Shown: one piece after another, positions 2 through 63,934 of the stretch
How the letters are laid out: every line of letters begins with the position of its first letter
Numbering within the stretch: position 1 is the stretch's first letter
Notes under the pieces: model-generated
Seen by the model: only the letters and a program-made list of their open reading frames with translations
Database searches by the model: none
Told to the model about the DNA's origin: nothing
Origin: Spartobacteria bacterium
Lineage (GTDB): Bacteria; Verrucomicrobiota; Verrucomicrobiia; Chthoniobacterales; UBA10450
Length of the DNA stretch: 64,000 nucleotides
Assembly: GCA_003169975.1 (NCBI GenBank)
Contig: PNAA01000024.1
Location: 161,273-225,272 of the forward strand
Direction of reading: 5' to 3'
Made by a program: the position numbers and the translations under genes

Positions 2-736
2 CCTAACGAAGAGTTTATTCTCTGTCACGGGGGCAAGGGCGGGAAAGGGAATGTCCATTTCAAGAGCGCGCGCAATCGGGCGCCGCGCCAATACTCCGAG
101 GGGGAGGAGGGCGAGGAGGGGACTTTCGTTTTTGAGTTGCGCACGATCGCGGACGCCGGTCTCGTGGGTTATCCAAATGCCGGAAAATCGACGCTCCTGC
201 GACGAATCTCCGCGGCGCACCCCAAAGTGGCGTCGTATCCCTTTACCACCTTGCATCCGATGATCGGAGTGGTGCAGTTTGCCGATTATCGGCGCGCAAC
301 GGTCGCGGACATCCCGGGATTGATCGAAGGGGCGCACCGCGATCTTGGTCTCGGGCACGCTTTTCTCCGGCATATCACGCGGTGCCGGTTACTCCTCTTC
401 GTGCTCGACATGGCCGGGAGTGAAGGGCGCAATCCGATTGAGGATCTGCAGCATCTGCGGCGCGAGATCGACCTTTACGACCCGCGGCTGGCGCAGCGGC
501 CCTGGCGAGTGGTGGCGAACAAGATGGATTTGCCGGAGGCAGAAGAGAATCTCGCTGCCTTCCGCCAGCGTTTTCCAGAGCGGGAGGTCATCCCGGTCTC
601 GGCGAAGGAAAATGAGGGCATCGAAAACTTGAAACGCGCTTTGGATCGCTGGCTAAATGAGCCGGAATTGGAGTTGCCAGGGCCGCGTGCCGAAGGATGC
701 ACGAATAGAGTTAGACAAGCGGAGGCAATGCGGTAA
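2..736 (+). CDS. obg: Obg family GTPase, 5' end outside window
   Basis: The frame is open from the first bases, so the start lies to the left of the window. The visible part begins in the glycine-rich Obg fold (CHGGKGGKGNVHFK) and runs into a complete G domain. It has G1 (GYPNAGKST), G3 (DIPGLIEGAH), G4 (NKMD) and G5 (SAKE). Obg is a ribosome-associated GTPase that acts in late 50S assembly and stress control. The C-terminus ends shortly after the G domain, so there is no large OCT extension. The first complete codons, CCT AAC GAA, contain the octamer CCTAACGA that recurs through this window. Confidence 0.93.
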   Translation, partial: PNEEFILCHGGKGGKGNVHFKSARNRAPRQYSEGEEGEEGTFVFELRTIADAGLVGYPNAGKSTLLRRISAAHPKVASYPFTTLHPMIGVVQFADYRRATVADIPGLIEGAHRDLGLGHAFLRHITRCRLLLFVLDMAGSEGRNPIEDLQHLRREIDLYDPRLAQRPWRVVANKMDLPEAEENLAAFRQRFPEREVIPVSAKENEGIENLKRALDRWLNEPELELPGPRAEGCTNRVRQAEAMR

Positions 737-783
737 GAGTTCACGACTTTTTGGCGCTACCATTAGGGAGTTCCCCATTTATT

Positions 784-2013
784 ATGTCGAAATTGGTCGT
801 CGCAAGTTACTGCACCACATTCCTGAAATCGGAGATGCTCCACATCTACCGACAGGTCACGGCCCTGCGCGATGTGCAGACCTTCGTGATGACGAAAAAG
901 GTGCAGAACAACGAACGCTTTCCGTTCGATGACATCGAGTTGATTCCGGCGCCGCGTCCGAATCCGTTCCGACACGGCTGGTTGAAATTTGTCGAGCGGC
1001 AGCCGCCGATCGTTTATCGCGGCGAATATCAGTTGCTCGCCAACCTGCTCGAGCGCCGAGGCGCGGACCTGATGCATATTTATTTCGGCCACACGGCGGT
1101 GCATTTGCTGCCGTTTATCGAGTGTTGGAACAAGCCCTGCATCGTCTCGTTTCACGGCGCCGACGTGATGGTGAAGGCGGAAAGCCCGGATTACGCGGCG
1201 AAGTTGCGCCGGGTTTTCCAATCGGTCCCGCTGGTCCTGGCTCGTTCGCGATCGCTCGAACAACGCCTCATCGTTCTCGGGTGCCCGCCCGAGAAAATTC
1301 GGATTAACCGGACGGGGATTCCGCTCGAGCAATTTCCGCTGGTGCGCCGACGGGCTCCCGAGGGAGGACGGTGGAGATTTCTGCAAGCGTGCCGCTTGAT
1401 CCCCAAAAAGGGCCTGGCGACCTGTTTACGCGCCTTCGCTGTTTTCCGGCAGGAAAATCCGCGCGCGAAGTTGTTCATCGCCGGGAAAGGCCCGTTGCAA
1501 CCCATTCTCGAAGCCCTCGCCATGCAGTTGGACGTGAGCGATCACGTGCACTTCACCGGTTTTCTTTCGCAGCCGGATCTGCTCGCACTCTACCACAGCT
1601 GCCACGTCTTTTTGCACCCGAGCGAAATGCCGGCGGACGAAAACCAGGAGGGAATTCCCAACTCCATCCTCGAAGCGATGGCGACCGGCATGCCGGTGCT
1701 CGCGACGCGGCACGGCGGGATTCCCGAAGCGGTGGAAGAGGGCCGCTGTGGAGCGTTGGTCGATGAGCGCGATTATCTGGCGCTGGCCGCCGAGATGAAG
1801 AAGATCACGCGCTCGCCGTATTCCTTCGGTGAGATCGGCGTGCTGGCGAGCGAATCGGTCGCCGCCCACTTCGAGCAGCGCTTCCACATTGCGCAACTGG
1901 AGCGGCATTACCGCGAGGCGTTGGAGGTTGCGAACGAAGCCGTCGCTCGTGAGAGGTCCGAGCGTCCGGTGACGGCGCCGCAGTTTCAGCCGGAGCGCGC
2001 AGCGGCGAAATAG
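784..2013 (+). CDS. GT4-family glycosyltransferase
   Basis: 409 aa from the ATG at 784 (MSKLVVASYC). An upstream in-frame start at 751 is less likely because homologous sequence begins near MSKLVVAS. The N-terminal half resembles the GT-B acceptor domain, with a conserved HGADV stretch. The C-terminal half has the donor-binding pattern of family GT4: FIAGKGP, then EGIPNSILEAMATGMPVLAT followed by GGIPEAV, including the E-x7-E pair. It probably transfers a sugar from a nucleotide donor onto a cell-surface polysaccharide or glycolipid; the substrate cannot be read from the sequence. It stands alone between obg and the ATP synthase genes. Confidence 0.85.
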   Translation: MSKLVVASYCTTFLKSEMLHIYRQVTALRDVQTFVMTKKVQNNERFPFDDIELIPAPRPNPFRHGWLKFVERQPPIVYRGEYQLLANLLERRGADLMHIYFGHTAVHLLPFIECWNKPCIVSFHGADVMVKAESPDYAAKLRRVFQSVPLVLARSRSLEQRLIVLGCPPEKIRINRTGIPLEQFPLVRRRAPEGGRWRFLQACRLIPKKGLATCLRAFAVFRQENPRAKLFIAGKGPLQPILEALAMQLDVSDHVHFTGFLSQPDLLALYHSCHVFLHPSEMPADENQEGIPNSILEAMATGMPVLATRHGGIPEAVEEGRCGALVDERDYLALAAEMKKITRSPYSFGEIGVLASESVAAHFEQRFHIAQLERHYREALEVANEAVARERSERPVTAPQFQPERAAAK

Positions 2014-3463: not shown

Positions 3464-3997
3464 ATGAACATTCCCATCTTCCTCGCCGCCAATCTGGTTA
3501 CTGAGACGGCAGAGAATTTTGGCTTCGACGTCAAAATCTTCCTCTCGCAAGTCATTAGCTTCGTCATCGTGGCGTTGCTCCTGAAGCAGTTTGCCTACAA
3601 ACCGATCCTCGCCGTGCTCGAAGAGCGCCGGCAACGCATCGCCGAAGGCCTGCTCAACGCCGAGAAAATCAAACAGCAGCTGGCCGAAGCGGAGCAGCGT
3701 TACCAGGAAATCCTGGCGAAAGGCAACGGCGAAGCGCAGAAGATGATCGACGAAGCGCGGGCCAGCGCGGGCGTGATCGCGGAACGCAAACAGCAGGAGG
3801 CGATCGTCGCCGCCGAGCAAATTCTCGCGAAAGCGCGGGAGGCGAGCGCGCTCGAACATGAGCGCACGATGAGCCAGTTAAAACGCGAACTCGGTCGGTT
3901 GGTCATCGACACCACCGCCAAAGTGACCGGCAAAGTCCTGACGCGCGACGATCAACGCCGGCTGCAGGAAGAAGCGAGCCGGCAGGTGGCATCCTAA
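3464..3997 (+). CDS. atpF: F-type ATP synthase subunit b
   Basis: 177 aa. One N-terminal membrane helix (residues about 22-42, FLSQVISFVIVALLLKQFAY) is followed by a long charged coiled coil rich in Ala, Glu, Gln and Arg. This is the peripheral stalk that links the membrane sector to F1. The stop codon TAA at 3995-3997 lies inside a copy of the recurring octamer CCTAACGA. atpH follows after 18 nt. Confidence 0.94.
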   Translation: MNIPIFLAANLVTETAENFGFDVKIFLSQVISFVIVALLLKQFAYKPILAVLEERRQRIAEGLLNAEKIKQQLAEAEQRYQEILAKGNGEAQKMIDEARASAGVIAERKQQEAIVAAEQILAKAREASALEHERTMSQLKRELGRLVIDTTAKVTGKVLTRDDQRRLQEEASRQVAS

Positions 3998-4015
3998 CGA
4001 AATCGACCGAAGAGC

Positions 4016-4408
4016 GTGAAGATCAGCAAAGACATCCGCCGACTCTCGCGCAAACTCGTGCGCGCGAGCTTCGTCGATGGCGTGCTCGATTCGGAAAAAA
4101 TCAACTCGCTCGTTCAGTTGATCATCGCGCAAAAGCCGCGCAGCTACCTTCAGCTCCTCGAAAACTATCAGCGGTTGTTGCGCCTGGAAGTCGAAAAACA
4201 GCGGGCCATCATCGAATCCGCCACCGAGCTCGACCCGGAGGCGGGGCGGCAGATCGTGGACGGATTGGAGCGCAAATACGGGCCTGGCCTAACGACCGAG
4301 TTTGTCGTCAACCCGGCCTTGCTCGGAGGTGTGCGCATCCGTGTCGGGAGCGATGTCTGGGACAGTAGTGTGCGCAATAGGCTCGATCGTCTGCAGCAAA
4401 AACTTTAG
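4016..4408 (+). CDS. atpH: F-type ATP synthase subunit delta (OSCP), short
   Basis: 130 aa from a GTG start (MKISKDIRRLSRKLVRASF). Typical delta subunits are about 175-185 residues, so this one is short, mainly in the N-terminal helical domain. The C-terminal part is recognisable: tandem acidic/basic helices, then the GGVRIRVGSDVWDSSVRNRLDRL signature, close to the usual GG-hydrophobic-R-h-G-D pattern. It joins the peripheral stalk to the top of F1. The order b-delta-alpha is the standard one, which supports the call despite the length. Confidence 0.88.
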   Translation: MKISKDIRRLSRKLVRASFVDGVLDSEKINSLVQLIIAQKPRSYLQLLENYQRLLRLEVEKQRAIIESATELDPEAGRQIVDGLERKYGPGLTTEFVVNPALLGGVRIRVGSDVWDSSVRNRLDRLQQKL

Positions 4409-5955: not shown

Positions 5956-5967
5956 CAGCCTAACGAA

Positions 5968-11351: not shown

Positions 11352-12161
11352 ATGCAAACGCCAGAAGCGCTCGGGATCATCGCCGGCAGTGGCGTCTACC
11401 CGCTCCTCCTCGCGGACGCGGCCCGCGTTGCCGGGGTGAAGAAGATTATCGTCGCTGCCTTCAACGACGAAACCTCCGCCGACATTACCAACCGCGCCGA
11501 CGAGATCGAATGGCTGCGCGTCGGTCAGCTCGGCAGGTTGCTGAGTTTTTTTCGCGAAGCGAACGTCAGGCACGCCATCATGGCCGGTCAGATCGCGCCC
11601 GGGAACCTCTTCAGTTTGCGCCCCGACTTCAAAGCGATGTTCCTTCTCGCGCGCTTGAAGCAGCGCAACGCCGAATCGATCTTCGGCGCGATCGCCGACC
11701 AGCTCACGGAAATCAACGTCGAGCTGCTGCCGGCTACGACTTTTCTCGATCATCTCCTCGCGCCCGTCGGCCATATCGCCGGCCCGAAATTGAAAGAGCG
11801 CGAGGAAGAGGATGTCAGCTTCGGCTTTGGCATCGCGAAGCAACTCAGCGCGCTCGATGTTGGACAGACGATTGTGGTGAAAAACGGGACGGTCCTCGCC
11901 GTCGAGGCCTTCGAAGGAACGAACGAAGCGATTCGGCGCGGCGGTTTGTTAGGAAAAAAAAACGCCATCGTAATCAAGGTGAAGAAACCCGGGCAGGACA
12001 TGCGCTTCGACGTGCCGGTCATCGGCACGGAGACGTTGCGCGTGACGGCGGAAGCAAAGGTCAGCGTGATCGCGGTCGAGGCCGGCCACACGCTGCTCCT
12101 CGAGAAAGCCGCGCTCATCGATCTCGCGGAGCGCTCGAAGATTTCATTGATCGGTCGTTAG
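11352..12161 (+). CDS. lpxI: UDP-2,3-diacylglucosamine pyrophosphatase LpxI
   Basis: 269 aa, family DUF1009/LpxI. Landmarks are the N-terminal LGIIAGSGVYPLLLA, the central MAGQIAPGNLF and the C-terminal block TIVVKNGTVLAVEAFEGTNEAIRRGG with DMRFDVPVIGTETL. The enzyme hydrolyses UDP-2,3-diacylglucosamine to lipid X in lipid A synthesis, replacing LpxH. Its presence supports an outer membrane with lipid A. The stop codon TAG lies inside a reverse copy of the window octamer (12155-12162). Confidence 0.92.
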   Translation: MQTPEALGIIAGSGVYPLLLADAARVAGVKKIIVAAFNDETSADITNRADEIEWLRVGQLGRLLSFFREANVRHAIMAGQIAPGNLFSLRPDFKAMFLLARLKQRNAESIFGAIADQLTEINVELLPATTFLDHLLAPVGHIAGPKLKEREEEDVSFGFGIAKQLSALDVGQTIVVKNGTVLAVEAFEGTNEAIRRGGLLGKKNAIVIKVKKPGQDMRFDVPVIGTETLRVTAEAKVSVIAVEAGHTLLLEKAALIDLAERSKISLIGR

Positions 12162-12237
12162 GCCGCGGCCGGCCTGGCGTTTGCAACTTCCTCGTTGCAA
12201 ATCGGCACCGGCCACCCGAAAATCGGGGTTCTCCCGC

Positions 12238-12324: not shown

Positions 12325-13361
12325 CGGCAGCTTGCCGAAAAGGAATTGGAACGGAACCGGACTCCGTTCGGCCCACGCGTTTTCGTCGTGTTTCGCTTTG
12401 GGGAAGGCGAGTTAAAGCAACTCCGAGCCGGGGCGATATCCCTTCCAGATCAAACGGTCCCGCATGCTGCGGGTGGCTTCGTAGTTGTCTCCGGGCCAGC
12501 CGCTATCCAGATAAATCTTGATCGTTCTCTTCTTCTCCTCCATCCCGCGATCGAGCAGATTATCGCAGAAGGTGAACGTGCTCGAAAGGCACGCGACCTT
12601 GCCGAAGACCTCCGGCCACTGCCACCCGAGATAAAAGGAAACGACGCCGCCGAGGGATGATCCCATCACCGCCGCATTTTCGGGGCCGGAGTGGGTTCGG
12701 TATTTCGAATCGATCAGCGGCTTGAGCGTCTCGACCAGGAAGCGTCCGTACTCCTCGTAACCGGGCTGGGTGTATTCACGCATGCGTTCGTTAGGGTAAA
12801 TTCCAACCACGATCGCTTCTTCGATGCGTTCATTCGATCGAGCACATCCAGGACCTCATCCGCCTTCCACGCGTTGCCGAGGAAGGCTTCTTCCTTGAAG
12901 AAAAGGTTTTGCCCGTCGTGCCTGTAGAGCACCGGATATTTCTTGAGCGTGTTTTCGCGGTAGCCCGGCGGCAGAAAGACGCGAAAGCGTCGCTCGACGC
13001 CAGCCTCGCTCCGCAGCGGCGGCATCAACTCGCAAACGCTGCAATGCGTGTCTTCGGAAAAGTAGGGATAGACCTCTAACGGCGCGCCCGAAGTCGTGAC
13101 CGCCAGGAGATTTTCCCCGCGCGACCATTGCGCGATCCCGTCGCGCAGCAGAATCGGCTTGAAATAAAAGTAGGGTCGCGTCGTTTCGACCAAGAACTCG
13201 GAAACGCAACCCTCTCGCTCAACCGATCGGGCCTCGACATCGTTTTCCCAATCCTGCTCGGTGCGCAGCACGATCCTCCCATTCCCGGTCGGATAGGCGA
13301 CGCGAATGATCTGCCGGTGAATTGGGTGCACCATCGTTAGTCGGGGCAACCCCGGAATCAT
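12325..13361 (-). pseudogene. Alpha/beta-hydrolase esterase with frameshift and in-frame stop
   Basis: The product resembles enterochelin-esterase-like (YieL-type) hydrolases. The N-terminal part, from the ATG at 13361, carries RFRVFLPPGYREN, YPVLYRHDGQNLF and the start of the catalytic domain. Near 12815-12825 the frame shifts by one base. The other frame continues with VVGIYPNERMREY and the nucleophile elbow GSSLGG. A TAA at about 12412 then interrupts. Beyond it the frame still encodes LAFPKAKHDENAWAER and PFQFLF, which carries the expected catalytic His. Two lesions make it a pseudogene. Its start overlaps the stop of the upstream MFS gene (TAATG), so it was once part of that operon. Confidence 0.8.
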
Positions 13362-14578
13362 TACACTGGCACCGGCACATCGGGTCCGGCAGTGCGCCGT
13401 AGCGTAATGAGATAATAGATGGTGCCGAGCGCTCCGAGAGCGGTCGCGGTGGCGAAGTTGACGCCGGGTCCGAGTTTCCAGAGCAGCGCGCCGAAGAGCG
13501 CCCCGGTACTGACGAGAAGATCGCGCACCAGATAATACGTGCCGATCACTTGCCCGCGCCGTTGCGGATCGCTATAGCCGATGATGAGCGCCTTGCGCGA
13601 GGTGTCGCCAAATTCCTTCAGCCCGCGAATCGCGAAGGCCAGCGCCAGCATGGCGAAGCTCCCCGACAACCAGAGCGCGACCGGGAAAAGCGTAAACATG
13701 ATGAAGGTGACAAAGACGAACGGTTCGCGGCCATATTTATCCGCAAAATGCGACGCCGGGATGATGCATAACGTCGCCGCGAGCATCTCGATCGTGATCA
13801 GGAGACCGACCTGCTTCGCATCCGTGCCAACATAGTCCATCGCGTAGATCACCACCCAGGCGAAAGGGATCCGTTCGCAAAAGCGGATGAGAATGTCGCT
13901 CAGCAGCAGGCGACGCAGCGGCGCGTTGAAACTCGTTAGGCTGCGCCAGAACGTCCAGCGCTCCCGGCCTGCCGTGGCGGTCGCCGGTGCCTCGGTGCGC
14001 AGTTGTCGTTGCACGCCGATCGTGGCCGCCGAGACGACGATCGAAACGAACAGCCCGATCCGCACCCCGTTGATCATGCCGAAGCGATCGATCAGCACGC
14101 CGCCGAGAAAGGGAGCGATCATGATCGGCAGTCGCTTGATCACCGACTGCATCCCGATTCCCATCGAGTGGCGATTCGCGTCGAGTGTTTCGGCGATGAG
14201 AGAGAACGTTGCCGGGAGCGAAAAGCAGGTCCACGAAAGGAAGAGGAACATTGCGCAAATCACGGCGCCCCAGTGCGGCACGAGGAGCACCAGTGCGTAA
14301 CCGGCAATCGAGAGGACGTTGAAGGCGATGAAGGCACGTCGAAATCCCCAGCGATCCACCACCAGACCGCCGGGATAGGCGTAAATCGCCCCGAGCAAGG
14401 TGCGGATCGCATCGAAAGTGCCGATGATGAAAACCGTCGCGCCGAGTGCCTGGAGATATTTCGGGATGAAGCGCATCCACAACTCCTCCCCGGCGCCGAT
14501 CGCGAAGATGGCGATGAGCAGGATGACGAGGTTGCGCCGCAGCCCGAAAAATTCCGCGAGCGAGCGCCGGGTCTTCAT
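13361..14578 (-). CDS. Major facilitator superfamily transporter
   Basis: 405 aa from the ATG at 14578, with about 12 hydrophobic segments. MFS loop motifs are visible as VVDRWGFRRAF between helices 2 and 3 and ADKYGREPF in the second half. The substrate is unknown. The gene begins 16 nt after the ChrB-like gene and overlaps the broken esterase downstream. ChrB-domain and MFS genes are often neighbours in chromate or other oxyanion resistance clusters, so export of a toxic anion is possible, but that is inference from context. Confidence 0.85.
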   Translation of the reverse strand: MKTRRSLAEFFGLRRNLVILLIAIFAIGAGEELWMRFIPKYLQALGATVFIIGTFDAIRTLLGAIYAYPGGLVVDRWGFRRAFIAFNVLSIAGYALVLLVPHWGAVICAMFLFLSWTCFSLPATFSLIAETLDANRHSMGIGMQSVIKRLPIMIAPFLGGVLIDRFGMINGVRIGLFVSIVVSAATIGVQRQLRTEAPATATAGRERWTFWRSLTSFNAPLRRLLLSDILIRFCERIPFAWVVIYAMDYVGTDAKQVGLLITIEMLAATLCIIPASHFADKYGREPFVFVTFIMFTLFPVALWLSGSFAMLALAFAIRGLKEFGDTSRKALIIGYSDPQRRGQVIGTYYLVRDLLVSTGALFGALLWKLGPGVNFATATALGALGTIYYLITLRRTAGPDVPVPV

Positions 14579-15084: not shown

Positions 15085-16677
15085 TTATTTCCGGCCCTTC
15101 GGCGGGGCTGCTGATGGCTCTTTCGGAAGGCGTCCGCCGTTTCCCTGCACCAGATAGGTCGTCTTGCCGACGGTCGTTAGGCGAAGCGTCTGATGCCAGA
15201 TGGAATCGCCGAGATCACAGTGGGCTTCGAGTTCTTCCGTCGCCGCGGCGGGCCTGGCTTTCGTGTCGCGCATGGCCTCCTGCAGGACCCGCCCATCCAT
15301 CGGGCGCGCTGTTTTCAACCGAAGAACGCGAAGAATCGTCGGTGCGACGTCGATGTTCCCGCTCGGAATTTCATCCGTCCAGCCGCGGCGAAAATCCGGG
15401 CCGCTGGCAATCAAGGTGTTGTTCATGTCATAGGGACTCAGGGAGCTGTGGCTGCCCTGGCCGACGTTCTTACCGATGTCGGAGGCGATTTGTCCGGCCG
15501 TTCCGAATTCGTTAGGCTGCTCCTTCCAGCGGCATGCGACGAGCACGTCGGGCGCGGTGGGTGCGTCCAATTGCGCCTGGGTGAGGGTAAAAGTCCCCTC
15601 GCGCGCGCGGCGGGTCAGGATCACGCCGGCGAAGTCGGAGCGCTGCAAAAAATCGATCAACCGGCTGATGACCGTCGCGTCGTGGTTGTCGACATGAAAC
15701 TCGACGCTCCCGCCGATGGTCACGACGAGGATTTGTCCGGCGTGCGGTTTGTCCGAAAACTCGCGGTCCGCGTCGAAGCCCGCCGCGCGCAACCGCGCCG
15801 CCACATCGACCACGAGATCGACAGTCGAAAATCCATGGTCGGAGACGACAAGGACATCCGTGGTCGTTAGGGCATTTTTGGCTTTCAGCGCGGCGAGTAC
15901 CCGGGCGAGGTTGTCGTCGCTGCTCTTGATCGCGGCGAGCGAAGTCGGCGAGCCGGGAGCCGTCTCATGCTGCGAAAGATCGGGTTCGCTCAACCAGAGA
16001 AGGGAAAACTTTGGTATTTTCTCTTTCCAAAGCACGTCCGTCAGCGCCCGGGTCGTCCAGGCATCTTCGCTGTCGTTAGGGAAACCCGCACGGATCGGGC
16101 AGGGTCCGATGGCCGCCGTGATCGCGGCCGCCGCGTTCGCCGGCAGGACCTTGCCGCGATAAACGACGACTGATTTTTTCGCGGCGTCCGATTGACGGTT
16201 GCGGCTGCGATCGGCAAGTTGCGCGACCGGCTTCGACCCGGCGATGACCGTGCGGTAGCCGGCCTTTTGGACGATCTCGGCGACTGTCGGCACAGCGATG
16301 AATTTCTTGCTGATCCGCGCATCAGGGGCGTCGAGCGCGGCAAAATCGGAGGTGTCAAACGGCTTGCGCGGATCGATTTCCGGTCGGAATTCCTCGTTCG
16401 CGACGATGCCGTTATGGGCTGGCTCCGCGCCGGTCGCGAGGACCGCGCCATTCACGTTGGTCGAGCTGGGAAAGGCGGGATGATTGTTTTTGAAAAAAAC
16501 GCCGGAGCGAGCCAGCGCGGCAAGAGTCGGGGTGTTCTGGTCGTTCACGAAATCCGGTCGCATTCCATCCCACACCACCACAACCACATGCTTGTCTCTT
16601 CCGCGCTCTTCGGCGGTGGATAGACGTGCTGCAATGACGAGAAAGAGCGCCGCGGCGACGAATGACCGGTGATTCAT
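15085..16677 (-). CDS. Secreted alkaline-phosphatase-superfamily phosphodiesterase
   Basis: 530 aa with an N-terminal signal peptide (MNHRSFVAAALFLVIAARLSTA). The type I phosphodiesterase/nucleotide pyrophosphatase fold is shown by VVVVWDGMRPDFV (first metal Asp), NNHPAFPSSTNVNGAVLATG (nucleophile region), a Ser/Glu-rich LLWLSEPDLSQHE block and VVSDHGFS near the C-terminus. It should hydrolyse phosphate mono- or diesters in the periplasm. It contains four copies of the CCTAACGA octamer in sense orientation. It is divergent from rnpA. Confidence 0.88.
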   Translation of the reverse strand: MNHRSFVAAALFLVIAARLSTAEERGRDKHVVVVVWDGMRPDFVNDQNTPTLAALARSGVFFKNNHPAFPSSTNVNGAVLATGAEPAHNGIVANEEFRPEIDPRKPFDTSDFAALDAPDARISKKFIAVPTVAEIVQKAGYRTVIAGSKPVAQLADRSRNRQSDAAKKSVVVYRGKVLPANAAAAITAAIGPCPIRAGFPNDSEDAWTTRALTDVLWKEKIPKFSLLWLSEPDLSQHETAPGSPTSLAAIKSSDDNLARVLAALKAKNALTTTDVLVVSDHGFSTVDLVVDVAARLRAAGFDADREFSDKPHAGQILVVTIGGSVEFHVDNHDATVISRLIDFLQRSDFAGVILTRRAREGTFTLTQAQLDAPTAPDVLVACRWKEQPNEFGTAGQIASDIGKNVGQGSHSSLSPYDMNNTLIASGPDFRRGWTDEIPSGNIDVAPTILRVLRLKTARPMDGRVLQEAMRDTKARPAAATEELEAHCDLGDSIWHQTLRLTTVGKTTYLVQGNGGRLPKEPSAAPPKGRK

Positions 16678-17475: not shown

Positions 17476-19212
17476 ATGGACAGACAAGCCTGGATTGCCA
17501 TTACGCTTTGCATCATCGGGCTGATCGCGTGGCAGGTTTACATGGTGCAGCATCCGGCGCCCGTCCCGGCGAAGATCGCCGCCTCGCCCAGTCCCTCGGC
17601 CACGCCAGCTCCTGCGCCGGCCGCCGCGGCGCCAAGCGCGACCGAATCCGTTCCGCCTAACGAATCGTCACCCACGCCGACTCCGCAGTCTTTCGTCGAG
17701 CAGACGACGAAGCTGCGCAATGCCGATCTCGAGCTGCTCCTGACGAATCGCGGCGGCGGCATCGCCGAGGCGGTCCTGCCGAAACACCGCGGCGAGAACG
17801 ACCAACCGGTAAAGTTAAACGCGCTCCGGCGAATGCCGATCGGCGCGATCGTCGAGAAACCCGCGGCGCCGATGCTCCAGGAATTCTCGATCGTGCCGGG
17901 GCAGGGGAGCGTCCAATTCGAGCGGGCGCTGCCGAATCACGTCATGCTACGCAAGAAGTTCAGCCTGCCCGCGCCGCCTAACGAGAAGGACGACTACATC
18001 GCGCAGATGGAAATTGATTTCCAAAACAACGGCACGGCCGCCTACTCCAATCCCGGTTATTTCATCGCCCTCGGCTCCGCTGCGCCGATCCACCACAACG
18101 ACCTGCCCAATTACACCCGCCTGACGTGGTGCATCGACGGCAAGACCAAATCGACCGATGTCAGCTGGTTCACCGCGCAGACTTATCCCTTCGTCGGGGT
18201 GGAGAAACGCGCGGCGCAGGAATTCTTCGACGAGAAGATCACCGGCGCGGAATGGCTCGGCGTGAGCAACCAGTTTTTCGTCACCCTCATCACCCCGCTC
18301 GGGACGAGGGCCACGGAGGCGTGGGCCCAGCGGTACGAGGCGCGGAAAAAAGATGACGGCCAGCCCGAGTACGGGATCGAAGGGGCGCTGGGCATGCCCG
18401 GATTCAAGGTGCAGCCGGGCCAGACCGCGATCTTGCAATTCCAGCTCTACGTCGGCCCGAAGCTTTACCATCGTCTCGCGCAACTGACGCACGACGAGGC
18501 CGAGATCATGGACTTCGGTCTCTGGAAATTGGTGAGCGAGGCGCTCCTCAACATGATGAACCTGTTGCACGGGCTCCTGGGCAACTACGCCGTCGCCATC
18601 CTCGTGCTGACCGCGATCATCAAGCTCGTCCTCTGGCCGCTCCAGACGAAAGCGAACAAATCGATGCGCCGCATGTCGGCCCTCTCGCCCAAGATGCAGG
18701 AGCTCAAGGAAAAGTACAAGGATGACCCGACGAAGATGAACGCCGAGGTCATGAAGATGTACAAGGATTACGGGATCAACCCAGTGAGCGGTTGCCTGCC
18801 GATGCTGATCCAAATCCCGATCTTCTTCGGCCTCTTCACCATGCTGCGGCAGGCGGTCGAGCTGCGCAACGCCAGTTTCCTCTGGGTGCACGACCTCTCG
18901 CAGCCGGATACAGTGGCGCACCTTCCGGGGCTCGGTTGGCCGATCAACATTCTGCCCTTGATCATGGCTGGGACCAGCTTCTGGATGACGCACATCACCC
19001 CGAAAAGCGGCGACGCCACGCAACAGCGCGTGATGATGTTCATGCCGCTGATCTTCGTCGTCTTTTGCTACAATTTTGCAGCCGCCCTCGCTTTGTATTA
19101 TACAACTCAGAACCTCTTCACGATTCTGCAGCTCTACCAGAACAGGAACCAGCCGCTGCCGAAACTGGAGAAAGTAAATCAGCCAGCGAAACGAAAAGGA
19201 AAAGGACGCTGA
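17476..19212 (+). CDS. yidC: Membrane protein insertase YidC
   Basis: 578 aa, Gram-negative type. It has an N-terminal membrane anchor (ITLCIIGLIAWQVYM), a Pro/Ala-rich linker, a large periplasmic beta domain, and the C-terminal five-helix insertase domain. That domain begins near LLHGLLGNYAVAILVLTAIIKLVLWPL and carries the typical NKSMRRMSALSPKMQELKEKYKDDP loop. It inserts membrane proteins with or without Sec, plausibly including the ATP synthase c subunit encoded nearby. Two copies of CCTAACGA encode P-N-E in the periplasmic domain. Confidence 0.96.
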   Translation: MDRQAWIAITLCIIGLIAWQVYMVQHPAPVPAKIAASPSPSATPAPAPAAAAPSATESVPPNESSPTPTPQSFVEQTTKLRNADLELLLTNRGGGIAEAVLPKHRGENDQPVKLNALRRMPIGAIVEKPAAPMLQEFSIVPGQGSVQFERALPNHVMLRKKFSLPAPPNEKDDYIAQMEIDFQNNGTAAYSNPGYFIALGSAAPIHHNDLPNYTRLTWCIDGKTKSTDVSWFTAQTYPFVGVEKRAAQEFFDEKITGAEWLGVSNQFFVTLITPLGTRATEAWAQRYEARKKDDGQPEYGIEGALGMPGFKVQPGQTAILQFQLYVGPKLYHRLAQLTHDEAEIMDFGLWKLVSEALLNMMNLLHGLLGNYAVAILVLTAIIKLVLWPLQTKANKSMRRMSALSPKMQELKEKYKDDPTKMNAEVMKMYKDYGINPVSGCLPMLIQIPIFFGLFTMLRQAVELRNASFLWVHDLSQPDTVAHLPGLGWPINILPLIMAGTSFWMTHITPKSGDATQQRVMMFMPLIFVVFCYNFAAALALYYTTQNLFTILQLYQNRNQPLPKLEKVNQPAKRKGKGR

Positions 19213-20477: not shown

Positions 20478-22010
20478 GTGAAATTGGAGCACTGGGAGCG
20501 CGCTCTGCCTGATCGCGGCAGCTACTGGCTGACGCGTTTTGTGATCCTGCGACTGCTCGGAATCGTCTATGCGATCGCCTTTCTCGTCGCCGCCAACCAA
20601 ATCCTGCCGCTCATCGGCTCCGACGGTCTCCTGCCGCTCGGCAACTTCCTCGAGCACGTCAGTCAAGCGCTCGGCGGATCGTTAGGCGGATTTCTCCGCT
20701 TGCCGTCGATCTTCTGGATCAATCACTCCGACACCGCCCTCGTCGTCACCGCGTGGATCGGCGTCGTCCTCTCCTGCGTCGTGGCAGCCGGCTACGCGAA
20801 CGCACTCCTGCTCACAGTGCTCTGGATTCTCTACATGTCGTTGGTCCACGTCGGGCAGGATTGGTACGGCTACGGCTGGGAAGTGCAGCTTCTCGAGACC
20901 GGCTTTCTCGCCATTTTTCTCTGTCCGCTGCTCGACGGCCGGCCTTTTCCGCGCCGCCCACCGCCGCTCGTCATCCTCTGGCTTTTTCGCGCCCTCATTT
21001 TCCGCATCATGTTCGGCGCCGGGCTGATCAAGATCCGGGGCGACGAGAGCTGGCGGAATCTGACCGCGCTCTATTATCACTTCGAGACGCAACCGATCCC
21101 GAACGGGCTCAGCCGCTGGTTCCATTTCCTGCCCCGCGGCGTTTTGCGCGGCGGGACTCTTTTTAATCACCTCGCCGAACTGGTGGCGCCTGGGTTTGTC
21201 TTCTGGCCGCGCATCGCGCGCCATGTGGCCGGGAGCGTGATCATCGCATTCCAGATCGTGATCTTCCTCGGCGGCAACCTTTCGTTCTTGAACTGGCTCA
21301 CCATCGTGCCCGCGCTCGCCTGCTTCGACGACCGCGCCTGGGCGAAAATCCTGCCGCGTCGCCTAACGAAAAGAGCGGAAGCGGCCGAAGGCCAAGCCGT
21401 CGTTTCGCCGACCATGTTGGGTGTGACCTGGGCGATCGCCGCGCTCGTCGCGGTCCTCAGCATTCAACCGATTCTCAACATTTTCTCGCCACACCAGATC
21501 ATGAACACTTCGTTCGACCGGTTGGATCTGGTCAACACCTACGGCGCCTTTGGCACGGTCGGAAAGGAGCGTTACAACGTCGTCTTCGAAGCAACCGACG
21601 CCGCCGTCCCAGACGACGCGGCCGATTGGAAACCCTATCCCTACAAAGGCCTGCCGGTGGCGCTCGATGAGCGCCCGCCGCAAATCGCGCCCTACCAATT
21701 GCGGCTCGACTGGCAGATGTGGTTCGCGGCGATGGGTTCGCCTAACGAGTATCCCTGGACGCTGAACCTGATCTGGAAGCTGCTTCACAACGATCCCGGA
21801 GCAGTCGGGCTTTTTCGTTCCAATCCGTTTCCGCAGAAACCGCCGCGCTACATTCGCGCCGTCTGGTATCGATACACCTTCGTTCGACCCAATCCGCAGG
21901 GGTTGTGGTGGAAACGGGAAAAGCTCGGTCTCTGGCTCCCGCCGCTCGCGGCCGATGATCCTGGTTTCAGACAACTGCTGCGCCGGGCCGACTGGCTCCA
22001 CGACTATTGA
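20478..22010 (+). CDS. Lipase maturation factor-like membrane protein
   Basis: 510 aa from a GTG at 20478 (VKLEHWERALPDRGSYWLTRFVILRLLG). It has several membrane helices and the features of the lipase maturation factor family: GYGWEVQLLETGFLAIFLCP, then GAGLIKIRGDESWRNLTALYYHFETQPIPN. A soluble C-terminal beta domain contains RLDWQMWFAA. In animals LMF1 helps fold dimeric lipases in the ER; the bacterial role is unknown. It carries three CCTAACGA octamers. Confidence 0.85.
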   Translation: MKLEHWERALPDRGSYWLTRFVILRLLGIVYAIAFLVAANQILPLIGSDGLLPLGNFLEHVSQALGGSLGGFLRLPSIFWINHSDTALVVTAWIGVVLSCVVAAGYANALLLTVLWILYMSLVHVGQDWYGYGWEVQLLETGFLAIFLCPLLDGRPFPRRPPPLVILWLFRALIFRIMFGAGLIKIRGDESWRNLTALYYHFETQPIPNGLSRWFHFLPRGVLRGGTLFNHLAELVAPGFVFWPRIARHVAGSVIIAFQIVIFLGGNLSFLNWLTIVPALACFDDRAWAKILPRRLTKRAEAAEGQAVVSPTMLGVTWAIAALVAVLSIQPILNIFSPHQIMNTSFDRLDLVNTYGAFGTVGKERYNVVFEATDAAVPDDAADWKPYPYKGLPVALDERPPQIAPYQLRLDWQMWFAAMGSPNEYPWTLNLIWKLLHNDPGAVGLFRSNPFPQKPPRYIRAVWYRYTFVRPNPQGLWWKREKLGLWLPPLAADDPGFRQLLRRADWLHDY

Positions 22011-25845: not shown

Positions 25846-25867
25846 GTTCGCTCCGCTGATCTCTCGC

Positions 25868-26488
25868 CTAACGAGCGCGCTCCACTCGCGCCACTTCCCT
25901 TTTCAAGAGCGCGCCGAGGCGATGTTTGGCCAGATACACTTGCGCGACGCTCACCCGCAATTCCTTCGCGACTTTCTGCACCGGCCATTGCTTTAAGACG
26001 TAGCAATCAAAAATCTGGTACTGCTTCCCACTTACTTTCTTTTTCACGCGCTCGGTCGCGGCCCGCAGCAGATTGGCGCGCCATTCTTTGTCCCACGCCG
26101 CATCGAGATCAAAGCCGGCCGGATCGGCGATCCGGTCGATCGTCGCGGTCTCAACTTCATCGCGTCGCGTTTTGGCGGGCTGCTCCCCGGCGCGTTTGCG
26201 TTTTCGAAACTGATCGGCGATCCGCCAGCGCGTGATGTTCAGGAGCCAGCCTTTGAATGATCCGAGCGCCGGATCGTACTTCAACCGGTCGATCTTTTTC
26301 GCGACCGTGATGAGCGTTTCCTGCACCACTTCCTGCGCCTCACTTTCCGTCAGGCCAGCCTGGCGCGCGGCGCGGTGGATGAGTTTCCAATAGGAATCGA
26401 AGAACTGCTGCCAGCGTTTCCGGTCGTTCCAATCGGCCAGCCGCTCGACCAGGCTCCGGCGCGTAGCGAGGAATTCAGCGCGACTCAT
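25868..26488 (-). CDS. ECF-type RNA polymerase sigma factor
   Basis: 206 aa. Sigma region 2 is visible as FFDSYWKLIHRAARQAGLTESEAQEVVQETLITVAKK and FKGWLLNITRWRIADQFRKR. The sigma-4 helix-turn-helix is WPVQKVAKELRVSVAQVYLAKHRL. The linker between regions 2 and 4 is longer than in minimal ECF factors, as in planctomycete and verrucomicrobial sigma factors paired with Ser/Thr kinases. The kinase encoded downstream is the likely partner or regulator (inferred). The stop codon TAG lies inside a CCTAACGA octamer. Confidence 0.88.
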   Translation of the reverse strand: MSRAEFLATRRSLVERLADWNDRKRWQQFFDSYWKLIHRAARQAGLTESEAQEVVQETLITVAKKIDRLKYDPALGSFKGWLLNITRWRIADQFRKRKRAGEQPAKTRRDEVETATIDRIADPAGFDLDAAWDKEWRANLLRAATERVKKKVSGKQYQIFDCYVLKQWPVQKVAKELRVSVAQVYLAKHRLGALLKREVARVERAR

Positions 26489-43580: not shown

Positions 43581-43775
43581 ACAAGAGAGATGGAGATAGG
43601 GATGATAAAAGGGAATGGTAAAAAGGAATGGGGCCTGATCTTCACTTTACACTTAAGATCGAGCACTCGTTAGGGCGAATCGTTCAAAGGTCAGGATCGG
43701 GGTCAGAGGATCGAAAGAAGGAAAGGGGTCAGAGTGGGGTTGCATTGTTTTCGCGGACAGTAAGGAAGGGATAAT
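43581..43775. other. Intergenic region between KTSC gene and IS3 remnant
   Basis: No gene seen. It contains one CCTAACGA octamer (43667-43674, reverse) and two GGGGTCAGAG copies similar to the terminal GGGGTCAG of the RAYT elements. It ends with the likely IS3 terminus near TTTTCGCGGACAGTAAGG. Confidence 0.4.
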
Positions 43776-49842: not shown

Positions 49843-51432
49843 TCACTTTCCGGGCGCAAAGGCGTAGTTGGCGAGCTGGAAGGTGACATAGGCTGTTGCC
49901 TTGGATGCAAGCGCCAGCACCGCCGGATCGTTATTAGAAAGGTCGTCGCACCAGAGGTTAGGCCGGTCCACGCAGCCGCCATCGAAACTGGGTATGTTAC
50001 CTTCGTAGTTGCCAAGATACCCACCCCAGAGAGCTACCTCCGCTGATCCCTTGCAGCAGTCCTGTCGCGTCAGAATGCCGGTATCGGGGATGCCAATCAA
50101 AGCGAATGAATTGGAGTCGGTGCCAGTATTTCCAAATGGTGCAGACTGCGATGGCACACCGACCGAACTAAAATAATCCGCGAAGAATTGGTTACCTATT
50201 TGGGAGTCCGGGACCACGTTGGGCGGGAATTGGTTGACGTTATAACCGAACCTCGGATCGGCCACCTCGTAGTCATAGTTAGGAGTAGCGGTGACATCCG
50301 CGTCGATGTCGAAGGCGATGAGGCTTCGCTCTTCCTGAGTAAGATGAGTTGTGTAGTAAGCAGACCCCAGTAGGCCGATTTCTTCACCGCCAAACCAGAT
50401 GTAGCGTAACTGATTAAGGGTGGGCGTTCCCGACATCTGCAGGGCGATTTCCAAAATGGTTGTAGACCCGGAGGCGTTATCAAGCATTCCGGGGCCGAAG
50501 ATGGAATCCAGGTGAGCGTCCACCACCACCACATGATTGGGATCGCCGTAGGAAGAATCAGCAATCACGTTGTAGTCCACTCCAGCCTTTGTCTGCATGC
50601 GGATCTCGAGATGCGCAACGGGAGGCTCGCCCGCGGCGATTCGCCCGAGAAGGTCGGCCGCGAGTGCGGGAGAGGCGACGGCGACGACCGGAATCTTTGC
50701 CTGACGATGCAGACGCGGGCGTTGCATCCTGCTGCCCTCGATCGTGCGGTCTTCCTCGCCCCGAGCCTCAGGTTGGGACTGCGGGTCGTAGAGAATGACA
50801 GCGGATGCGCCGGCGTGTTCCGCATTCGCAACCTGCGCGTCGTAGGCGCAGTCGCCGCGCTGCAAGATGGCGATATCTCCGCGTCGAAAATTCGCAAACT
50901 CTTCGGCGGAACAACCGGTTCCAGAGCCGGTCACCGGCCGAACGCGGGCGGTGACGTTTGCGCCGCCGGATAGCCTTGCCATCACCCAATCTTTCTCCAC
51001 AGGATAATTTCGGCCGGCCAAACTAAGCGTGGGAACGCCAACAAGCTGAGGCGCGCGATAGGCATAACTTTGGATAGTCACCGTATAGCCGGCCCGCCTC
51101 ATCAGGTTCGCGACGTAGTTCACCGACGCCCTGTAGCCGGAAGTGCCGGTATCGCGATTGCCGTGTCCGTCGGTGCCGGGATGTTGGTCTGCGATTGTCT
51201 GGAAGTTCGTCAGGTGCTGCCAGAGGGCGCCATTCTGGATGGCCGCGACCAGCTTTTCTGGTGTTTCCCGAACGGGCGCCCGAAGGTCGTTAGGCGCAAC
51301 TTCGCCGTTCGCCGGGACTGAACCAGGCGGGTTCGCAACTTGCGAAACGGCGTTTTCGCCAGTCATCGCTACCACGGCAATGGCAAGAATCCTACCCAAA
51401 ACAACACAGTTAATAAAGCGGGCACGTTTCAT
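49843..51432 (-). CDS. Secreted M28-family zinc peptidase with PA domain
   Basis: 529 aa, N-terminal signal-like segment (LGRILAIAVVAMTGENAVS). A PA insert spans about residues 150-280 (FANFRRGDIAILQRGDCAYDAQVANAEHAGASAVILYD). The M28 core has the metal ligands in VVVDAHLDS and MLDNASGS, the catalytic Glu pair in WFGGEEIGLLGS, and an Asp in AFDIDAD. The usual C-terminal His ligand motif (H-x-x-C-D) is not evident: the matching place reads CVDRPNLWCDD. Activity may be altered. Confidence 0.85.
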   Translation of the reverse strand: MKRARFINCVVLGRILAIAVVAMTGENAVSQVANPPGSVPANGEVAPNDLRAPVRETPEKLVAAIQNGALWQHLTNFQTIADQHPGTDGHGNRDTGTSGYRASVNYVANLMRRAGYTVTIQSYAYRAPQLVGVPTLSLAGRNYPVEKDWVMARLSGGANVTARVRPVTGSGTGCSAEEFANFRRGDIAILQRGDCAYDAQVANAEHAGASAVILYDPQSQPEARGEEDRTIEGSRMQRPRLHRQAKIPVVAVASPALAADLLGRIAAGEPPVAHLEIRMQTKAGVDYNVIADSSYGDPNHVVVVDAHLDSIFGPGMLDNASGSTTILEIALQMSGTPTLNQLRYIWFGGEEIGLLGSAYYTTHLTQEERSLIAFDIDADVTATPNYDYEVADPRFGYNVNQFPPNVVPDSQIGNQFFADYFSSVGVPSQSAPFGNTGTDSNSFALIGIPDTGILTRQDCCKGSAEVALWGGYLGNYEGNIPSFDGGCVDRPNLWCDDLSNNDPAVLALASKATAYVTFQLANYAFAPGK

Positions 51433-56076: not shown

Positions 56077-56519
<443 letters not shown>

Positions 56520-61328: not shown

Positions 61329-61730
61329 ATGGAAATCAAACGAAGTGGTTCACAACCGTCGAGCAAAGGACCGGGTGATTGGTTTACCGGCGTGGTGCGC
61401 ATCGATCCGTTGTTCGAGGCGCCCGAACCGGCGCGAGTGAGGGGCGCAAGTGTTACCTTCGAGCCCGGTGCGCGCACTGCCTGGCATACGCACCCGTTAG
61501 GCCAGACACTGATTGTCACTGCGGGCTGCGGTCGGGCGCAGCGCGCGAGCGGGCCGATCGAGGAGATTCATCCCGGCGACGTCGTCTGGTTTTCGCCTAA
61601 CGAAAAGCATTGGCATGGTGCGGCGCCAACCACGGCCATGACGCATATTGCCATTCAGGAAGCGCTCGGCGGCAAGGCGGTTGATTGGATGGAAAAGGTG
61701 GGCGACGAGGAATACACCGGTAAAAGCTGA
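61329..61730 (+). CDS. Cupin-domain protein
   Basis: 133 aa from the ATG at 61329. The conserved cupin boxes are visible: box 1 [20 protein letters not shown] with two metal His, and box 2 [19 protein letters not shown] with a third His. The layout resembles small quercetinase- or carboxymuconolactone-decarboxylase-linked cupins. Substrate unknown. It contains the octamer CCTAACGA as P-N-E. Confidence 0.85.
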
Positions 61731-62029: not shown

Positions 62030-62359
62030 TCATAAGTTCGTCTGAACGAATTTGGGACTGGCGTGGATATCGATCTGGCGCAGCGTCGTGTCGCCGGTGT
62101 TGACGAAGCGATGCGGGGTGTTCGCCGGGATAACGACAATGCCGCTCGCTTTCACCTCCCGCGCTTCCTCGCCAACCGTGATGGTGGCGGTTCCTTCGAG
62201 GGTGAAAGCGACCTCGACGTAGGGATGCGTGTGCAAGGGTGGGCCCTGACCGGGCTTCGCCGTCACGATGTAGGCTGAGAAGGGCGCCCCCTGGTTTGCG
62301 CCGACGAACTCGTGCGACATTCCAACGAAGGGTAGCTGCTCGAGATGGAGAAAGCTCAT
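62030..62359 (-). CDS. Small cupin protein
   Basis: 109 aa. Box 1 is GQGPPLHTHPYVEVAFTLEG with the two metal-ligand His and a Glu; box 2 is ASGIVVIPANTPHRFVN with a third His. It is a single-domain cupin of the kind found in sugar- or signal-binding proteins. It stands alone between non-coding stretches; 62360-62590 contains no clear gene. Confidence 0.85.
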   Translation of the reverse strand: MSFLHLEQLPFVGMSHEFVGANQGAPFSAYIVTAKPGQGPPLHTHPYVEVAFTLEGTATITVGEEAREVKASGIVVIPANTPHRFVNTGDTTLRQIDIHASPKFVQTNL

Positions 62360-62590
62360 AAGTGGACTCTACAGCATGTTGGACCTGTATCACGATCGAC
62401 AACGCACATCTCGGGGTCGAAGAACGCTCGGGTTCACCGAGCACATCCGGGCGCTCCTCCACGCCAAGGGACTTGAGTGGCCCGACCCGGTAACGCGGGC
62501 AGTTAACGGAACCGTGTCTGCCAAAGCATTTGTGCTTGACGAATCGACCGAAATCAGGAGCAATCGTGCCTCAGTCACCTTATTCAATTT

Positions 62591-63934
62591 ATGAAAGTAA
62601 CTCGTTTATTGGAGAAACTTTGCCTCACGACGCGGTCGAACAAGAGTGGCTTGATCGCGATCTCGCTCCTCCTCTCCAGCGCCCTGGCGGCAAGCGCTGC
62701 GCAACAACAGACTCTTTATGCCGCCACGGGCTCGTTGGGCGTCCAGGGTGTTCTTTATACCCTCGATCCGGCCACGGGCGCCGTGCTCACGACGGTCGGG
62801 TCATTGAATGACGCGTCCGGCAACAACTACGGTATGGCTGGGCTCCGCTACGACCCGTTCAACGGCATATTTTACGGCGCGACCGCGGGCGATTCTCCGA
62901 CCCATCCCAGCTATCTCGTCATCGTCGACCCGACCACCGCCCTGGTCACACCGATCGGCCCATTTGGGGTTGTCCTTACGGATATAGCCATCGACCCAAC
63001 CACTGGGATCATGTATGGGGTCTCCGGCTTCAATCAAAAGTTTTACACCATCAATCTTGCGACGGGCCTGGCGACTCAGACCGGCTCAACCGGGCTTGGT
63101 TTCCAGAACGGGGGTGGCCTGGCCGCTAACTCCACGGGCGCACTTTTTGGCGTCGATAATTTTTCCTGCTACTCCTACAACAAGACGACCGGGGCGGCCA
63201 CGTTAATCGGTCTAACGCTGCTCCCGGATCTGGTGAGAGCGGCGGACTTCAACGCCGCCGATGTATTTTATGGACTGGAAGGCGGTGGGGGGACCGACAA
63301 TCTGCACCTTCGCTTCCTGGTCACGGTAAACCTCACTACAGGGCTGGGCACGCTGGTGGCGCCCATCAGCATCGGGGACCTTGACGGGCTGGCCTTCGTT
63401 CCGGCCACGGCCCCAGTTCAGCTGGTCGGCATCGTCTCAGAAATGATTGATGGCGGCTCCGGCACGTATGATATCGATCTGACGAGCGGTACTGCCGTCG
63501 AATGCAGAAACGGGGTGGGCGGCAACTACACGCTGATTCTCACCTTCTCAAACAACCTAACGAGCGTTGATAGCGCCAGCGTGGGTTGCGGCTCGGTCGG
63601 CAGCAGCGCCATCGGCCCGAACCCTAATCAATACACGGTCAACTTGAGCGGCCAGGGCGCGTGCAATGCCCAATACAATACCGTTACGCTGAGCAACGTG
63701 AATGATTCCATGGGCAACCACAGCACCACGGTTCTCAGTCCGCAATGGGGTCTGCTCATCGGCGACACCACCGGCGACGGTAGTGTCAATGCCGGCGACA
63801 TCGCCCAGACCAAATCCCAGTCGGGTCAGCCGGTCACCGGTTCCAACTTCCGCGAAGACGTCAACGTCGACGGCAGTATCAGCGCCGGCGACATCGGGCT
63901 GGTTAAATCAAAATCAGGTACCGGACTGCCTTAG
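62591..63934 (+). CDS. Secreted protein with a C-terminal dockerin-like domain
   Basis: 447 aa, signal peptide ending LLLSSALAASA. The first 280 residues are repeats of the type TLYAATGSLGVQGVLYTLDPATGAV, AGLRYDPFNGIFYGATAGD and IAIDPTTGIMYGVSG, a beta-propeller-like pattern. The C-terminus has two calcium-binding loops, DTTGDGSVNAGDIAQTKSQSGQ and DVNVDGSISAGDIGLVKSKSGT, as in type I dockerins. It is probably exported and anchored or complexed outside the cell. The last 66 nt of the window hold no gene. Confidence 0.85.
   Translation: MKVTRLLEKLCLTTRSNKSGLIAISLLLSSALAASAAQQQTLYAATGSLGVQGVLYTLDPATGAVLTTVGSLNDASGNNYGMAGLRYDPFNGIFYGATAGDSPTHPSYLVIVDPTTALVTPIGPFGVVLTDIAIDPTTGIMYGVSGFNQKFYTINLATGLATQTGSTGLGFQNGGGLAANSTGALFGVDNFSCYSYNKTTGAATLIGLTLLPDLVRAADFNAADVFYGLEGGGGTDNLHLRFLVTVNLTTGLGTLVAPISIGDLDGLAFVPATAPVQLVGIVSEMIDGGSGTYDIDLTSGTAVECRNGVGGNYTLILTFSNNLTSVDSASVGCGSVGSSAIGPNPNQYTVNLSGQGACNAQYNTVTLSNVNDSMGNHSTTVLSPQWGLLIGDTTGDGSVNAGDIAQTKSQSGQPVTGSNFREDVNVDGSISAGDIGLVKSKSGTGLP

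Follow-up and report, generated by a model that had tools for sequence, protein, structure and literature searches.

A candidate DNA uptake sequence in Verrucomicrobiota and a second, unrelated word in the same family

Introduction

In 2013, Neisseria and Pasteurellaceae were described as the only bacteria whose transformation depends on short uptake sequences (PMC3630211). A terminator survey from 2026 names uptake words in the same two families, Neisseriaceae and Pasteurellaceae, and reports them in terminators of both (PMC13020248). Haemophilus influenzae carries 1,471 copies of a 9 bp word together with 764 one-off forms, i.e. 0.52 per exact copy (PMC1939737). Van Passel described an orientation bias of uptake signal sequences (USS) within genes as well as a bias towards gene termini (PMC2346458). 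In S. muelleri two dialects of the DNA uptake sequence (DUS) occur in one genome and are often paired, which has been read as a hint of dimer binding (PMC3630211). Here we analyzed a stretch of 64,000 nucleotides from a Spartobacteria bacterium (assembly GCA_003169975.1, contig PNAA01000024.1, positions 161,273 to 225,272), referred to as the window, for which a prediction made from the letters alone had reported the clustered octamer CCTAACGA and its likeness to such uptake words. We propose that the fuller word GCCTAACGA, which is CCTAACGA with a G in front, is probably a DNA uptake sequence in Verrucomicrobiota, with a probability of about 0.62. Among the matches listed for the open-access literature there was no report of an uptake word in this phylum, and those listed for the letters of the words themselves had unrelated titles.

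Results

The window contains exactly 30 copies of CCTAACGA, 15 on each strand and all at the positions originally given. In 100 dinucleotide-shuffled versions of the window the word had a mean of 1.00 and a maximum of 4, and a third-order Markov model expected 1.18 copies. The count of 23 copies with a preceding G could be reproduced as well, and 0.39 copies of GCCTAACGA were expected by the same model. Accordingly, CCTAACGA was the top-scoring 8-mer and GCCTAACGA the top-scoring 9-mer of the window. The word is not its own reverse complement and is therefore non-palindromic. As the original prediction had stated, 26 of the 30 copies lie in the left part, all of them before position 35,000 (binomial p = 3e-4, an optimistic value since the break was picked after looking).

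The excess is not confined to the window, and a Markov expectation does not account for it, either of which had been named as a reason to give up the prediction. In the genome from which the window derives (G000; 4,466,360 bases or 4.47 Mb in 59 contigs) 2,498 copies of CCTAACGA were found (1,278 and 1,220 by strand) vs 165 (81 and 84) of the word read backwards, which served as control. For exact GCCTAACGA and its reversed form the numbers were 1,980 vs 61. When 436,884 bp of G000 were sampled, 209 copies of CCTAACGA were found, whereas a fourth-order Markov model, which absorbs part of the word itself, expected 27.6. Among the 207 fully flanked copies of this sample 79% had G at position -1; the flanks otherwise held at most 0.13 bits of information at any position. 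A short word with hundreds to thousands of copies far above chance is a feature shared with DUS and USS.

The closest relatives of a transporter encoded in the window, mostly with 66-77% identity, come from metagenome-assembled genomes (MAGs) labelled Spartobacteria, Chthoniobacterales, Verrucomicrobia or Candidatus Udaeobacter, and matches at 52-59% identity mainly carry Acidobacteria-type labels. G000 would accordingly belong near the Chthoniobacterales. A search for the same word in close relatives had been suggested, and all five genomes of the genus (g1) are rich in CCTAACGA with 1,795-5,493 copies per genome. Among 83 genomes of the family, G041 (g10) with 2,672 and G042 (g11) with 2,254 copies match this genus, and intermediate counts were found in most of g6 and g8 as well as in G080. 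Family relatives of similar guanine-cytosine (GC) content had one copy in 40 kb (G021) and three in 40 kb (G032). The 130 genomes from other families of the order are poor in the word (0-107 copies), and on inspection by eye each of them had fewer copies of it than of its reversed form. When 288 genomes were drawn from across the phylum, three of which belong to this family, hundreds of GCCTAACGA occurred only in G000 and G042. Next came three genomes of g76 and then G043 with 60 copies. The g76 genomes G394, G397 and G406, which belong to the same class (family f18), have 75, 133 and 61 copies vs 48, 66 and 49 of the reversed word, so that the word is mildly enriched there although they are not members of the family.

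Other genera of the family have a second word that behaves in a similar way, AAGATCGACA(A/T), which is unrelated to the first. The excess of AGATCGACA was first seen in loci of named relatives and was then counted in the same 197 genomes of the order as CCTAACGA. Reversed AGATCGACA is rare everywhere (0-16), and therefore the 130 genomes of other families (0-126 copies) were used as yardstick instead of the reversed control. G042 contains 4,941 copies of AGATCGACA beside its 2,254 copies of CCTAACGA, and further high counts were found in four g13 genomes (1,157-1,672), in G006 (1,226), in G043 (973) and in 25 g14 genomes (141-892). The counts are low in users of the first word, as each of the five g1 genomes has 69-89 copies and G041 has 75. 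In a comparison of 67 of the 83 family genomes, ten exceeded 150 copies per Mb for CCTAACGA and 22 for AGATCGACA, both thresholds were exceeded only in G042, and 36 genomes were high in neither word. The densities of the two words are opposed (Spearman -0.39, p = 0.001, kinship ignored). Locus L037 (17,188 bp) holds 41 copies of GATCGACA and 16 of CCTAACGA side by side, so the presence of two words in G042 does not result from a mixed bin. A G042 sample of 174,614 bp contained AAGATCGACA 290 times vs 2.2 expected, with A or T mostly as the next base.

Two copies of AGATCGACA on one strand at a distance of exactly 15 or 16 bp were seen in 34 cases in 274,614 bp of G042 (L099-L107 and L160-L164), and the spacers of the examples inspected are unlike one another. 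Outside G042 such pairs occurred once among 196 words in 25 loci of other second-word users. A composite of both words in G042 was considered and rejected, as the 63 mixed pairs within 60 bp had no strong preferred spacing (largest bin 3). In the same 25 loci the variant AACATCGACA was found 28 times vs 1.2 expected and is a possible sub-dialect of the second word. Samples of 40-97 kb from g5-g7 were scanned for a third word. The strings obtained from g5 and g6 were mainly of the GTCATCCCGAGCG type and resemble a longer dispersed repeat, and in G032 no clear word emerged; the g6 samples also yielded CCTAACGA itself. A GTCATCCCGA-type string, probably part of a longer dispersed repeat, was over-represented in g5 (L133-L137), g6 (L116, L117, L141-L144) and G003 (L108-L113).

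In a tree of AtpA from 19 genomes, two of them with partial sequences, eight of the 16 inner forks were left open for weak support. Genera g1 and g10 formed one group (100/99), next to which g6 and g8 were placed. G042 was grouped (99/98) with the second-word users G044, G043 and G011, and this group also holds G032, G018 and G080, all low in the second word. Of the two words the first may be older and may have left its traces throughout the family.

Whether the sites are conserved or newly created, a question raised with the original prediction, was examined in blastn alignments in which intact word sites were compared with control 8-mers in small samples. First-word sites of G000 were intact in G003 in 5/6 cases and those of G003 in G000 in 5/17 (control 8-mers 13%). 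From G003 to G004 9/20 were intact (control 14%), from G000 to G004 3/6 and from G004 to G000 4/14, and pairs with G041 gave 3/4, 3/6, 3/4 and 3/5. Towards G042 the numbers were 0/4 from G000 and 2/16 from G003; sites of G042 were intact in 0/8 cases in G000, 2/11 in G003 and 0/7 in G025, and those of G000 in 0/3 cases in G025. None of the second-word sites of G042 was intact in G000 (0/15), G003 (0/21) or G025 (0/20). Word sites are thus partly retained among users of one word, and at larger distance the alignments suggest turnover with the density maintained.

The second-word sites of G042 fell into gapped alignment in 7/15 (G000), 12/21 (G003) and 8/20 (G025) cases, vs 7-11% of control windows. 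This gapping of AGATCGACA sites, together with the pairs 15-16 bp apart, would suit a mobile or slippage-made short repeat that copies itself. We consider such a repeat highly improbable, since there is no conserved flank beyond the 9-11 bp of the words and the three alignment comparisons that were read by eye contained in-place substitutions or loosely aligned variable stretches without any unit-sized insertion.

The uptake word of Haemophilus influenzae is accompanied by near misses, and the same was observed here for GCCTAACGA. With at most one mismatch it was found 4,108 times in G000, 4,065 times in G042 and 589 times in G043, compared to 1,980, 1,802 and 60 exact copies. With G043 as background (about 171 one-offs per Mb) the excess of one-off forms amounts to about 1,360 in G000 and 1,770 in G042, or 0.7 and 1.0 per exact copy. 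In the 174,614 bp of G042, variants of GCCTAACGA with C or A near the start and with A or G near the end are tolerated.

The position of the words relative to genes was analyzed in samples of G000, G003 and G042 with our own gene caller, without curated annotation. Both words occur in several reading frames and between genes, which agrees with the earlier view that the octamer is not a protein motif, and the first word is rarest in both frames where a stop codon would arise inside the gene. Its density per kb between and within genes was 0.52 and 0.47 in G000, 2.86 and 1.39 in G003, and 0.84 and 0.81 in G042; for the second word in G042 it was 3.04 and 1.83. By class, the first word was sparser than in genes in divergent intergenic stretches (G000 and G042) and in convergent ones (G042). 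The first word provides, with its TAA, the stop codon for 23/112 TAA-ended genes in G000, 13/51 in G003 and 10/105 in G042. The last 100 bp of genes contained 38 copies vs 16.4 expected in G000, 32 vs 18.0 in G003 and 21 vs 13.3 in G042. Copies of the first word inside genes favour the coding strand in G000 (104:61, i.e. 104/165) and G003 (88:51, i.e. 88/139), and this preference is absent in G042 (61:56, i.e. 61/117). The sense-strand excess in G000 and G003 would speak for a codon or composition bias as origin of the word. The probability of this explanation is negligible in view of the Markov and reversed controls, the several frames, the intergenic density and the low counts in the similar-GC relatives G021 and G032.

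The replication strand was judged by GC skew and by the majority gene strand of stretches from draft genomes, as the original prediction had called for a check of strand and replichore bias. No significant strand preference was found for the first word in G000, G003 and G042 or for the second word in G042, the lowest p value being 0.07 (G000). Relative to GC skew the ratios were 162:130 in G000, 143:157 in G003, and 119:108 and 248:233 in G042. A non-palindromic word on both strands without replication-strand bias is again known from DUS and USS. The original prediction had also considered a Chi-like word. Words of this kind, as well as FtsK orienting polar sequences (KOPS) and architecture imparting sequences (AIMS), are strongly strand-polar. 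As a non-palindromic over-represented octamer that in G000 tends slightly towards the G-rich strand (162:130, p = 0.07), CCTAACGA has some resemblance to a Chi-like or FtsK-guiding polar word, yet the even ratios in G003 and G042 and the 1,278:1,220 distribution across G000 reveal no clear polarity. The Chi-like reading was thus disfavoured, and we regard a polar word as very unlikely.

Close neighbours of the first word (<60 bp) were rare in G000 (1/188, 4.0% expected) and G042 (0/133, 4.9% expected), and a larger G042 sample of 227 words had one such pair. As G003 shows no such avoidance (8.2% vs 9.5% expected), it is not general. The spacing of CCTAACGA had a coefficient of variation (CV) of 0.78 in G042 vs 0.96 +/- 0.07 expected, and by this measure regularity was absent in G000 and G003. 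On contig C2 a stretch of 33.6 kb, chosen after looking, has no copy of the word vs 18.8 expected. In its first part (L068) 10 of 14 genes were scanned and are largely related to polysaccharides, export and phosphodiesterases, and a second word-poor stretch (L061) has a mixed gene content. The ten proteins scanned from the word-poor right half of the window comprise a SIR2-HerA pair, two IS200-like transposases and an Mrr nuclease, and also ThiC and a peroxidase. Word-poor stretches thus partly carry polysaccharide, defence or transposase genes, but all were picked for their poverty in the word; they would fit an avoidance of acquired DNA and do not prove it.

These data also bear on the idea that the word is the binding site of an abundant chromosome-organising protein. 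The density of 0.5-2 per kb without significant strand bias, the CV in G042 and the lack of close neighbours in its first sample (0/133) would be compatible with this function. However, such a site should be needed in acquired DNA too, yet 33.6 kb of C2 is empty; different words across genera of one family are hard to reconcile with an organising protein, and the spacing is not regular by CV in G000 and G003. We consider this explanation unlikely. Restriction sites are usually avoided and not enriched in genomes, and methylase sites are seldom as long as 9-11 bp. Both points speak against a recognition site of a modification or defence system that marks self, although an exact, long, non-palindromic and lineage-restricted word might fit it, the window has Mrr and SIR2-HerA genes, and G042 could hold two systems. 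Moreover, HIP1, an iterated motif tied to methylases, is palindromic (PMC4390886), and the present word is not. A recognition site of this kind appears quite unlikely to us.

Within the window the copies of CCTAACGA are located as follows, all preceded by G unless noted. At the left end they lie at 2..9 (+), 3993..4000 (+, no G), where TAA is the stop codon of the open reading frame (ORF) 3464-3997, 4288..4295 (+) and 5959..5966 (+), the latter directly past the ATP synthase alpha-type gene (4423-5955). The copy at 12155..12162 (-) gives the TAG stop of lpxI (11352-12161) and is followed by 12788..12795 (-, no G) and by 13933..13940 (-) within an MFS gene (13361-14695). A phosphodiesterase-like gene (15085-16677) contains four copies at 15174..15181 (-), 15509..15516 (-), 15864..15871 (-, no G) and 16073..16080 (-, no G), and yidC (17476-19212) contains two at 17656..17663 (+) and 17977..17984 (+). 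TAA of 20679..20686 (-) is the stop of ORF 20682-21224 (-), and the copies at 21362..21369 (+) and 21741..21748 (+) lie within an LMF1-like gene (20430-22010). Further copies are found at 23657..23664 (+), 23825..23832 (-), 24179..24186 (-, no G), 24861..24868 (-) and 25867..25874 (+), which gives the TAG stop of ORF 25868-26488 (-). As originally claimed, copies therefore lie inside stop codons, since four ORFs of the window terminate within one. An alpha-2-macroglobulin-like gene (26497-32373) holds 28507..28514 (-), 30571..30578 (+) and 32070..32077 (+), and a penicillin-binding protein gene (32370-34907) holds 33191..33198 (+) and 34662..34669 (-). The remaining copies are 43667..43674 (-, no G), 51287..51294 (-) within an M28 peptidase-like gene (49843-51432), 61596..61603 (+) and 63556..63563 (+, no G).

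The large bacterial alpha-2-macroglobulin gene followed by the penicillin-binding protein gene (26497-34907) is presumably a known kind of pair. The SIR2-like protein gene adjoins the HerA helicase gene (40402-43355), an arrangement which we take to resemble known anti-phage defence pairs. Y1 (IS200-like) transposase genes at 44678-45682 and 46602-47654 lie on opposite strands near the Mrr nuclease gene (48215-49081). Type IV pseudopilin genes had been claimed for the window; the ORFs were searched once with a simple pattern, and just one of them (ORF 8137-8733) had a pilin-like N-terminus. GCCTAAC/GTTAGGC resemble, as we assume, integron attC core sites. This candidate was dismissed as the copies lack close inverted pairing.

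Discussion

The likeness to DNA uptake sequences suggested by the original prediction is supported by the excess across genome and lineage, the lack of a clear strand bias, the use of several frames, the near misses, the replacement of one word by another and the presence of competence genes, in the sense of a word that works like an uptake sequence and not of a proven function. To our knowledge, thousands of exact non-palindromic words without clear polarity, in several frames and with turnover, near misses and a word swap have no parallel other than DNA uptake sequences. A Chi-like or segregation word, a palindromic methylation motif or a mobile repeat would explain these observations less well.

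In the proposed system GCCTAACGA would be a short self-tag favoured by a receptor that is part of a type IV pilus competence machine and binds extracellular DNA. DNA of the own lineage, with a tag every 0.8-2 kb, would enter the cell and recombine more readily than foreign DNA. Since tagged fragments would be imported more often, uptake bias and recombination would restore the tag and spread it where genes tolerate it, and it would accumulate on either strand, in different reading frames, in intergenic DNA and at stop codons. Receptor binding, promotion of uptake and upkeep of the word by uptake bias are what we infer from this pattern. AAGATCGACA(A/T) would fill the same role in other genera, which is the most likely function of the second word, and G042 would use both words. 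It is a tentative proposal, to which we give slightly less than even odds, that the family recognises its own DNA by two unrelated words with separate readers, and that these words swap between genera and coexist in G042 as a two-language uptake system, far from both families with known uptake words.

ComEC (PF03772) and PilT (TIGR01420) were found in 26 of 26 genomes and DprA (PF02481) in 25, the single miss being a genome that is 71% complete, and G000 has all three, in favour of an uptake sequence. Several findings weigh against it. Six of the 26 are outgroup genomes lacking the excess of the word, and therefore the presence of these proteins does not discriminate; the machinery allows uptake but does not point to it. 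Likewise, neither word reaches a high density in 36 of the 67 family genomes, though those tested share the machinery. ComP_DUS (PF16732) did not score above the cut-off in any of the 26 genomes, with weak matches in 22. A PilB-PilC-pilin cluster exists in G000 and relatives, but its pilin is of one type in the first-word users (g1), in G042 and in G065, the one second-word-only genome where it was readable. This pilin was readable in G000-G004, G042 and G065 and as N-terminus alone in G041, and was not yielded by the stretches of G008, G044, G046, G032, G080 and G021. The genes near PilT-PilU and PilB-PilC (six genomes) and near ComEC (G042 and G000) were also examined for a receptor. The scanned PilT neighbours encode a response-regulator protein, an acetyltransferase-like protein, IF-1, an LMF1 protein, two small proteins that match membrane-type families weakly and two that match no family. 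No receptor candidate was kept from these surroundings or from the cluster pilins.

Further points of this kind come from the distribution of the words. By quintiles the trend towards gene ends is significant in G000 alone (p = 0.002), and the second word in G042 shows no trend, with 25 copies in the last 100 bp of genes vs 24.3 expected. Terminator-like inverted pairs were not evident: the second word forms 19 inverted pairs in G042, 14 of which are intragenic, and CCTAACGA had none in G042, one in G000 and four in the G003 sample, all inside genes. One-off forms of the second word in G042 are nearly absent save at the word ends, which makes this word sharper than the uptake word of Haemophilus influenzae. 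Moreover, we found neither uptake data for this bacterial group nor a precedent for two unrelated words in one genome in the literature.

If uptake sequences arose independently in soil Verrucomicrobiota, with two unrelated words, they would provide a third natural replicate for studying why uptake words arise and how they switch. These bacteria, known here from MAGs only, would then exchange genes mainly with their own kind, and the tag might ease the transformation of a group that is hard to culture.

Among the known systems, HIP1 of cyanobacteria is comparable as an iterated genome-wide short word, but HIP1 is palindromic and methylase-linked and the present word is not. The DUS of Neisseriaceae are similar as non-palindromic words of 10-12 bp that occur thousands of times, in their several dialects across the phylogeny and in the existence of genomes with no obvious word (PMC3630211). 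However, they are read by ComP and belong to a different phylum, and here no ComP was detected above the cut-off. Neisserial dialects have CTG as their common core, and those found together in S. muelleri are a single base apart, whereas the two words described here are unrelated and neither GCCTAACGA nor AAGATCGACA contains CTG or CAG. Furthermore, the pairs of S. muelleri overlap in dyad symmetry, in contrast to the same-strand second-word pairs of G042, which are 15-16 bp apart. The USS of Pasteurellaceae, likewise from a different phylum, have an AT-rich extension, which was not seen here, as the flanks carry at most 0.13 bits outside the G at -1. Nevertheless, a 9 bp word, a comparable copy number, the near-miss ratio and the biases in orientation and towards gene ends are features in which GCCTAACGA resembles the USS, and the orientation bias reported for Pasteurellaceae is comparable to the sense-strand bias of the first word in G000 and G003.

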